The notes beneath the pieces are model-generated. The model made no database searches, had not been told where the DNA came from, and worked only from the letters and a program-made list of their open reading frames with translations. Shown here piece by piece: positions 27,862 through 30,064 of a DNA stretch of 64,000 nucleotides; within the stretch, counting starts at the first letter, position 1, and every line of letters begins with the position of its first letter. The position numbers were made by a program, and so were the translations under genes. Origin of the DNA: Verrucomicrobiales bacterium. GTDB taxonomy: Bacteria; Verrucomicrobiota; Verrucomicrobiia; Verrucomicrobiales; DEV007. The stretch is from contig JANQVJ010000034.1 of assembly GCA_030730365.1 (NCBI GenBank), positions 1-64,000 on the forward strand, in the 5' to 3' direction.

Positions 27862-27879
27862 GGAAGTTGGAAAGGGGAT

Positions 27880-27893
27880 GCGGCTTTAGCCGC
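27880..27893. repeat. Short palindrome after the DEAD-box helicase gene
   Basis: GCGGCTTTAGCCGC, arms GCGGCT/AGCCGC, lies 19 bases after the stop codon. Related palindromes follow the alcohol dehydrogenase gene (35613-35624) and the esterase/helicase gap (37815-37824). It could act as a 3' hairpin or be a member of a dispersed REP-like family. Confidence 0.45.
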
Positions 27894-27962
27894 GTGCCCG
27901 ATGACTGCCGGGTGAGGCTATGGGCGCATCCGTTTCGTTGCGGAAGTGGACCCTGTCCCGCT

Positions 27963-29990
27963 TCACTTCCGCTTTTTACGGCGTTTCGCTTTTGCGGGAG
28001 TGGTGCGTTGTTTTTCACCTTTGCCCTGCTGACGCCAGCCGCGGAGAGGGATCTTGAGCGGTGCGCTTTTTACGGGTCCTTCTGCAGCGTCTTCTCCGAC
28101 TGCGCTTGACTCGGGCTCCCACATCGCAGGATCGATCGGATAGGCGAGCTCGAGCTCCCTGACGATCTCCGAGACGACCCGGACCGGACGAGTCTCAGGT
28201 TCGCATCCGGAGGCTTTGAGGGCGGCTTTCCAGGAGGTGAAGACCCTGCGGGCCTTCTCGTAAAGTTCGTTTCCCGCTGTATCCCATTTGATGCCGCGGA
28301 GATGGATTCTTTTCTTATGGCGGTGCCGTTCCCGAATCGCTTCGATCACCGCTTCCTGCTCCTCCTTTCGCGTCGCTCGCAGGAGAGCGTTCTTGCGGGG
28401 CGGCGAGGTTTTCGCTGCTTTTGGTGGCCGCTCTCCTTTCACCCGCGCCGGTTTTCTCTTCCGCGGCGATTCGAGTCCGGCGCGGGACACGGCTCGTTGC
28501 CACGAACCGAATGCGGATTTTGCCCGTCTGTAGAGCTCGAGTCCCGCGGGGGTGAGCTTCATTGCCTCCTCATCAAAAGTATGCCCGCTCCCCGCAAACT
28601 CCCGTATCTCCGCGACCAGTCCTTCCCGGATTACCGCTGATTTATTTGCCAGTTCCTTCGGAAGACCGGCGGCGACGATGGCGTCTTCCCAGGTTCCAAA
28701 GGCATTGCGACAGGCGTTGTAAAACTTCCCGCCGTCGGTCTCCTGCTGTATCTCGCGTCGATCGAGCGACTTTCCGGACTGGTGTCGCAAACGGAGCGTT
28801 TCGAGGAGTGCCAATCGCCTGTTTCGGGCGCGGCCGAGGGCGTGATGTTCGGGGGTCAGCCCGGCGGCATCGAGGAGATCGGGCCATTTTTTGAAATGGT
28901 GGCGCACGGACCTCAGGAGAGCGCGGTCAGCATCTGATCCCCGGTTCATTCCGCGGATCGTGTAGGCCTCGCCCTCAGCCGCCTGTTTTTGAAATGCCGC
29001 GATGACTTCCTCCCTCGTGTGGCGGGGGACGAACGGAGGCGGGGGCGGTTTGGCGATGCCGAGCTTTTCCCGGATCGTCGGGTAGCCTCCCATTTTGGCG
29101 ATGGAATGGTGGAGATCGTGAAGTCCGAGCTTTCGGCGAATGCAGATCTCGGTGATGCGGTGACCGTCGGCAGCGAGTTGCCGCAGCTCGGCAAGGACCG
29201 CGTCGGGTGTAATGACCCGCCGCAGAGGATAAGGGCGATGCGGGAGAGGAAGGCCGGCGGCTTCGAGGGCCTTGTCGTAGCTGCCGAAGTGTCGCTCGAC
29301 TCCGGTCGTGAGAGAGTGGTTCAGCTTCGAGAGCCGCGTGATCGTCGGGGTGGATCCCTCCTTCCGCGCGACCTCTCGCAGACCTTTGCACAATGCTTCA
29401 CGCGTCATGCGGGGCGGGCGCGGGGGTAGATCGTGGGTGTAGGGGATGCCCAGCGCGGTGACGAATGACTCCCACGTCAAGCCTTGGCGATGGACATGCT
29501 GCCAGAGATTGTGATCGTGCTCGCAGACCCAGGTGGTGCGCAGGCCGTGACCCATGCGGTGATAGCGGTAGGCGCGGTCCATCATATACTCGTCCGAGTA
29601 AAGTGGCTCCCAGTGGGGAAGGAGATTTTTTCCTCCCTCGCGTCTCATCCGTGCTCGCCGTAATTCGCTCGAGATCTCGGTGCCGGGAAACTGAGCGCGG
29701 TAGTCGGTCGTTTTCATCCCGTGGCGTGCCGCGAGGTGCGTGTTGAGCTGCAAGCCCTCGTAACCACAGATCCGGCAGGCGACTTTCTCCTCGAGTTCGA
29801 CCTTGAGATCCTCATAGTTCAGGCCGGCATCCGTGACCGCCTGCCACCATCCCCAGAAGGGACGCACGGAGTAGACTCGGGCGAGGAGATCGGGTCGCCG
29901 CCGTTTAACCGCATGGATATTCAACGCGCGCCCGGCCTCGTGCTCGAGGCGAATCCACTCCAGGATCTCGTGCTTTTCTTTATCGGTCAT
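27963..29990 (-). CDS. Zinc-finger protein with eight FGSW...AGL repeats, unknown function
   Basis: A 675-residue, strongly basic protein with no catalytic motif that I recognise. It carries a repeat with core F-G-S/T-W-x5-AGL at about residues 45, 170, 235, 301, 366, 431, 494 and 584, giving a period near 65 except where other sequence is inserted. Examples are FGSYDKALEAAGL, FGTWEDAIVAAGL and FGSWQRAVSRAGL. Each core is preceded by two predicted helices. This resembles the homing-endonuclease-associated repeat (HNH_repeat), but no HNH or other nuclease is present. Between repeats 1 and 2 is a Ros/MucR-like zinc finger (C72-x2-C75-x9-H85-x4-H90). The C terminus is a Lys/Arg tail. Inferred: a modular nucleic-acid-binding protein. 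ATG at 29990. Confidence 0.7.
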   Translation of the reverse strand: MTDKEKHEILEWIRLEHEAGRALNIHAVKRRRPDLLARVYSVRPFWGWWQAVTDAGLNYEDLKVELEEKVACRICGYEGLQLNTHLAARHGMKTTDYRAQFPGTEISSELRRARMRREGGKNLLPHWEPLYSDEYMMDRAYRYHRMGHGLRTTWVCEHDHNLWQHVHRQGLTWESFVTALGIPYTHDLPPRPPRMTREALCKGLREVARKEGSTPTITRLSKLNHSLTTGVERHFGSYDKALEAAGLPLPHRPYPLRRVITPDAVLAELRQLAADGHRITEICIRRKLGLHDLHHSIAKMGGYPTIREKLGIAKPPPPPFVPRHTREEVIAAFQKQAAEGEAYTIRGMNRGSDADRALLRSVRHHFKKWPDLLDAAGLTPEHHALGRARNRRLALLETLRLRHQSGKSLDRREIQQETDGGKFYNACRNAFGTWEDAIVAAGLPKELANKSAVIREGLVAEIREFAGSGHTFDEEAMKLTPAGLELYRRAKSAFGSWQRAVSRAGLESPRKRKPARVKGERPPKAAKTSPPRKNALLRATRKEEQEAVIEAIRERHRHKKRIHLRGIKWDTAGNELYEKARRVFTSWKAALKASGCEPETRPVRVVSEIVRELELAYPIDPAMWEPESSAVGEDAAEGPVKSAPLKIPLRGWRQQGKGEKQRTTPAKAKRRKKRK

Positions 29991-30064
29991 GGTGAGACGA
30001 ATCGAAGACGCATGGTCCCGCCTCGAACCGGTATGAGCAAGCGGGAAAGAACATCCCTATTTGC

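Follow-up and report, generated by a model that had tools for sequence, protein, structure and literature searches.

The window analysed here is a stretch of 64,000 nucleotides from a Verrucomicrobiales bacterium (contig JANQVJ010000034.1). It contains, downstream of a DUF255/thioredoxin (yyaL-like) gene and upstream of a convergent DbpA-type DEAD helicase gene, a minus-strand open reading frame that starts with ATG at 29990 and stops at 27963. The coordinates of this frame had been given correctly in the initial annotation, from which the strand (minus) was missing. The encoded protein is a chain of eight repeats with a zinc finger between the first two of them, and no second copy of the gene was found in the window's genome. 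The features are as follows.

27862..30064, no strand: 2203 bp separating the yyaL/DUF255 stop from the DEAD-box helicase stop; missing in 17 genomes of the same genus
27963..29990, minus: whole gene, 675 aa, one copy in the genome
29814..29975, minus: repeat 1 (residues 6–59), in the conserved head; repeat HMMs, AlphaFold2 model, orthologue conservation
29637..29795, minus: Ros/MucR-like zinc finger (residues 66–118); PF05443 21.5 bits, 2jsp alignment, invariant ligands
29439..29597, minus: repeat 2 (residues 132–184), preceded by a conserved LLPHWEPLYSDEY segment; family HMM, AlphaFold2, conservation
29247..29405, minus: repeat 3 (residues 196–248), the most typical PF18780 unit, 38.7 bits alone
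29055..29210, minus: repeat 4 (residues 261–312); family HMM, AlphaFold2
28851..29018, minus: repeat 5 (residues 325–380); family HMM, AlphaFold2
28659..28811, minus: repeat 6 (residues 394–444); family HMM, AlphaFold2
28470..28628, minus: repeat 7 (residues 455–507); family HMM, AlphaFold2
28197..28355, minus: repeat 8 (residues 546–598); repeat HMMs including the one from other proteins, AlphaFold2
27966..28190, minus: C-terminal tail (residues 601–675); conserved short helix, then a low-confidence Lys/Arg-rich end

The repeat cores lie at the residues where the initial annotation had put them. The protein matches the Pfam family PF18780 (HNH_repeat) over several stretches with E 1e-26 (93.5 bits, gathering score 26), and thus belongs to the family that had been suggested. 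A family-iterated repeat HMM, which has the window's own units among its training sequences, recovers all eight units at 31.7–57.1 bits each. An independent HMM was trained on 32 repeat units. They come from nine other proteins: L020, the most distant member of the window's family, and eight that do not belong to this family. With this HMM the window protein scores 128.5 bits in total over seven stretches, while the maximum among 5,000 shuffles is 7.5 bits, so the repeats clearly align better than shuffled sequence. The independent HMM matches repeats 3 and 4 in part and misses repeat 2, which is detected only once the window's family is part of the HMM. Residues L23, N24, K29, R30, P33, G47 and W48 of repeat 1 are invariant. 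The whole protein has a net charge of +42 and a pI of 10.1; repeats 1–7 are mildly basic (net charge –1 to +4), and residues 601–675 (net +8, low model confidence) form the Lys/Arg-rich tail noticed earlier, in which the short helix has the consensus SKIVxELELAYPID.

A full-chain AlphaFold2 model, for which eight orthologues were used, has a mean pLDDT of 76.6 and shows the same four-helix pattern eight times, in the expected places, as a true structural repeat should; its pTM of 0.32 gives no confidence to the arrangement of the units relative to each other. Every folded segment is either a repeat or the finger, and no globular region is left unassigned. The single-repeat model (81 units used) also has four helices, with a core pLDDT of about 80. 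Among solved structures it comes closest to TetR-family DNA-binding domains, DsrC, LexA and sigma factors (Z 4.9 at best, to 3gzi and 6a4l), and the model of repeat 3 taken alone appears similar to a helix-turn-helix (HTH) domain. The best neighbour of the full model is the TetR-family protein 2hyt (Z 5.3 over 55 residues, window residues 190–247). Foldseek returned no significant match, the best E being 0.63 for the single repeat and 0.03 for the whole chain; the latter belongs to the RNA-binding repeat protein PPR10 (rmsd 32 Å) and may reflect a common helical arrangement. The TetR_N profile did not match up to E 10 in hmmscan, in which HMMER filters drop weak matches, and only two TetR genes are present in the window's genome. 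The scores alone prove nothing, but the agreement of most matches on HTH domains is suggestive of HTH-like units, and we infer this fold from the predicted models together with these weak structural matches. PF18780 is listed by one modelling paper among repeat families without known structure, and the searches made found no solved structure of it.

Searches with Pfam, NCBIfam and PHROGs profiles up to E 10 gave no convincing nuclease match in the window protein. The one exception, a weak match to a PHROG profile named ‘HNH endonuclease’ (E 0.16), falls on repeat residues 252–292. As the model likewise contains no unassigned fold, the absence of a nuclease noted in the initial annotation stands, and no nuclease gene was found beside the window gene. 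Pfam, NCBIfam, PHROGs, PADLOC and PDB sequences assigned no other domain: the matches to Pfam TetR_C_28 (E 0.22) and to NCBIfam profiles (E 0.07 and 0.21) were set aside as chance, PDB sequences gave chance-level matches only, and a known defence system was rejected, with no PADLOC profile matched. A phage origin by direct homology found no support either, P0001 having no match among 50,697 phage records or in short-pattern scans of IMG/VR; the scans test such an origin only weakly because the patterns are short. With PF18780, the homing endonuclease associated repeat, the window protein shares the unit itself; it differs in its eight divergent units, in the interleaved zinc finger and, as compared with HNH homing endonucleases, in having no HNH or other recognised nuclease domain.

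The finger between repeats 1 and 2 has the form C72-x2-C75-x9-H85-x4-H90. Its four ligands are unchanged in 10 of 10 relatives with 30–80% identity in the head, in line with the Ros/MucR-like finger proposed initially; a nine-residue spacer and C2H2 ligands are described for the Ros finger (PMC9779718). PF05443 (ROS_MUCR) matches residues 67–101 with 21.5 bits, short of the 25.4 that the family requires, and only with its finger part (profile positions 62–96 of 123); the N-terminal part of this Pfam profile, where the oligomerisation region of Ros/MucR proteins lies, finds no match in the window protein. Residues 66–118 align to the Ros87 DNA-binding domain (2jsp) over 53 residues at Z 4.4 and 3.6 Å, an alignment of the predicted model that is weak taken alone, yet coincides with the location of the sequence match. 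The likeness to Ros/MucR covers the ligand spacing, conserved residues after the finger and, tentatively, the aligned structure, while the sub-threshold score, the lack of the family's N-terminal part and the setting inside a repeat chain are different. Given the score below the family cut-off and the unmatched N-terminal part, we leave the protein outside Ros/MucR. The finger of one distant relative (G302) resembles one in a protein of Bacillus phage SP-15 that is annotated as an endonuclease (39% over 56 aa). The annotated SP-15 endonuclease L127 1447-2784 has two N-terminal Ros-like fingers, linking this finger type with phage nucleases.

Gene order around the repeat gene is the same in a sister genome (G021). 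Between the two genomes the repeat protein is 65% identical, the yyaL product 89%, the DEAD helicase 95%, and the next protein (nucleoside-recognition Gate domains, spmAB-like) 94%. Comparison of the two repeat genes gives dN/dS of about 0.26 (dN 0.26, dS 1.02), and therefore indicates a real gene under purifying selection; by this sequence comparison it appears to be fast evolving yet constrained. The two flanking housekeeping genes stand tail to tail without the repeat gene in 17 further genomes of this genus, their stops separated by –7 to 121 bp; the closest of these empty-site relatives is G023 (yyaL 86%). The empty junction therefore points to the gain of a single gene (or to repeated loss), and the simplest reading is one gain in the ancestor that the window's species shares with G021, the alternative being many precise losses. 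At the locus of another orthologue (G010) the same comparison finds diverged flanks, and the G003 match ends at a contig end. Since the orthologues in G010, G015/G013, G044 and G033 have other neighbours, an operon shared with yyaL or the DEAD helicase was rejected. A distant member, in G302, adjoins a phage-portal-like gene, whose match to PF04860 (E 3e-7) stays below the cut-off.

Matches to the family were found in 8 of 191 relatives searched, counting the window's genome; two named ones are metagenome-assembled genomes of Akkermansiaceae and Verrucomicrobiales. A profile of the head alone (repeat 1, finger, repeat 2) added three further members from other families of the phylum. Relatives carry from 3 to at least 9 repeats by the family HMM, some of their sequences being partial: eight in the window protein, G021, G010, G015 and G029, nine in G044, six in G302, five in G033, three in G232 and at least nine in G332. 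Identity among five close orthologues is 0.81 in repeat 1 and 0.80 in repeat 2, then 0.53–0.55 in repeats 3–5, 0.43 in repeats 6–7 and 0.58 in repeat 8. This gradient defines a constant head and a variable tail. Beyond the repeat core, only the finger ligands and a WE..EY..DR segment are invariant in the head; this segment contains no recognised nuclease motif. When recognition-helix positions were compared with other variable positions for conservation among orthologues, the difference was not significant, either for all repeats (p 0.26) or for repeats 3–8 (p 0.084). The three-repeat relative (L092 10257-17778, in G232) lies near genes for RadC, an IrrE-type M78 peptidase and a HerA-type ATPase, and a ThiF gene is present in a possible ubiquitin-like set; this neighbourhood is possibly a defence or integrated island.

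Nuclease-free HNH_repeat proteins are widespread. The earlier statement that the repeat accompanies a nuclease does not hold in general, as proteins of this kind are common in the same phylum and present on Bacillus plasmids. Repeat-only proteins of about 276 aa occur in the same class as the window (L048, L073, L074, L077 and L078); four of them, with about 260–285 aa, are:

L073 7973-8797, repeat-only protein
L074 7786-8562, repeat-only protein
L077 7818-8660, repeat-only protein
L078 7479-8279, repeat-only protein

The repeat-only proteins resemble the window protein in their tandem units of about 63–65 residues, the lack of a nuclease and the chromosomal location, but have four tiled units by HMM, no zinc finger and, in some lineages, one fixed locus: the genes in L073, L074 and L077 share the same neighbours (glycosyltransferase-like and cysK-like) and so keep a conserved chromosomal place. 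HNH nucleases do stand beside repeats of this family in L046 and L047, and in L032 an HNH_repeat lies within an SF2-helicase protein. The proteins in L032 and L035 (G010 and G017; about 1240–1270 aa) combine an SF2 helicase, one HNH_repeat and a C-terminal S24 peptidase domain; by eye their start is PLD-like, and they are defence-type in appearance.

Much longer arrays are carried by Bacillus subtilis plasmids:

L125 1300-3774 (NZ_CP103996.1), 14 units
L155 973-3933 (NZ_CP089149.1), 16 units
L156 1144-3762 (NZ_CP061871.1), 14 units

The encoded proteins (824–986 aa, annotated as hypothetical) are, like the window protein, nuclease-free HNH_repeat chains; unlike it, they have near-identical units, no finger, and hypervariable positions in the predicted HTH, and their helix 2–3 loop is shorter than in the window units. 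Whole units vary from plasmid to plasmid. Mean entropy is 1.54 at positions 17–31 (the predicted HTH) and 0.67 elsewhere, with a P-value of 0.0025 that is optimistic because the region was picked after the first array had been seen. The eight most variable positions include 17, 20, 26, 27, 28 and 30, where helix 2 and helix 3 begin in the HTH alignment. Such variation is the pattern that would be expected of a modular reader. On a Brevibacillus plasmid (L124 2542-3921, NZ_CP085875.1) about four HNH_repeat units precede what looks by eye like a C-terminal HTH of the Cro/CI type; the protein is annotated as an HTH transcriptional regulator.

The modular nucleic-acid binding proposed in the initial annotation is judged likely because the units are predicted to be HTH-like and the protein is basic. 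With moderate confidence, we take it to be a nuclease-free, multi-HTH DNA-binding protein built of recognition modules from the world of homing endonucleases and acting by occupancy. DNA binding and this mode of action are what we infer; with no catalytic domain, occupancy of DNA is the most likely way for the protein to act. The head would make the main, conserved DNA contact and give specificity; the six further HTH-like repeats, about 60–90 residues apart on flexible links, would make the footprint longer and stronger, with additional, non-specific affinity coming from the basic tail. A protein bound in this way could serve as a repressor, a roadblock or a local architectural factor. Its gene would spread or relocate alone, and would have been gained at the tail-to-tail junction by the common ancestor from which the window's species and its sister descend. 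Against this reading stand the non-significant Foldseek results, Z scores near 5, the mildly basic charge of the repeats and the non-significant recognition-patch test.

The finger and the charge of the long chain (pI 10.1, net +42) would also suit a nucleoid-structuring, H-NS/MucR-like global silencer that acts with low sequence specificity at numerous AT-rich sites, since silencing in the manner of H-NS is described for Ros/MucR proteins (PMC9779718, PMC10746212). We find this unlikely: the Ros/MucR profile matches in the finger part only and below its cut-off, the head residues are strongly conserved, and the gene is missing from most species of the genus (eight of the 191 relatives searched have it), which would be unusual for a core nucleoid protein. 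Under a selfish or relic origin, the protein would be the DNA-binding half remaining from a homing endonuclease, promoting its own spread together with a nuclease elsewhere, or a decaying passenger. Entry as a single gene into a tight convergent junction, the phage-portal-like neighbour of a distant member and the modules shared with homing-type nucleases fit this idea, which we nevertheless rate as unlikely, given that dN/dS argues against decay, no nuclease gene is adjacent, and another lineage stably maintains repeat-only relatives at a single chromosomal place.

Binding of RNA, in the logic of PPR proteins or in association with the ribosome, is suggested by RNA-bound PPR10 as the top whole-model Foldseek match, by the alignment of some repeats to ribosomal protein chains and by the DEAD helicase next door. 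The PPR10 alignment, however, has an rmsd of 32 Å over the chain, single repeats match mainly HTH proteins, the DEAD gene is not kept beside orthologues elsewhere and the partners of the family are DNA enzymes, which makes RNA binding improbable. Least credible is a cryptic nuclease or other enzyme with an unrecognised active site: although homing-type relatives have nuclease domains, all folded segments of the window protein are accounted for, no nuclease profile matches convincingly, and invariance in the head beyond the repeat core is limited to the finger ligands and a segment with no recognised nuclease motif; we regard it as very improbable.

The DNA-binding reading that we prefer has a broader form, which is possible but doubtful: HNH_repeat arrays may be separately evolved modular DNA readers, in which each HTH-like unit of about 57–65 residues contacts a short step of DNA through variable residues at the starts of helices 2 and 3. 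Nuclease-free arrays would then be free-standing readers, and the window protein a version anchored by a Ros-like finger. TAL effectors and TALE-like proteins (PMC5472282) share the proposed logic of a modular chain with every unit contacting DNA; unit length and sequence differ and no code is known here, so the resemblance is one of logic only.

The modules themselves, HNH_repeat and Ros-like finger, are already known. In the literature searched we found no description of a Ros-like finger inside a nuclease-free HNH_repeat chain of variable repeat number, and no functional or experimental study of the PF18780 repeat. The Bacillus arrays make the idea of a modular reader directly testable. If the units are DNA-reading HTH modules, their chains would join TALE repeats and zinc fingers as a new modular DNA-binding scaffold and illustrate how parts of homing endonucleases turn into ordinary DNA-binding proteins.
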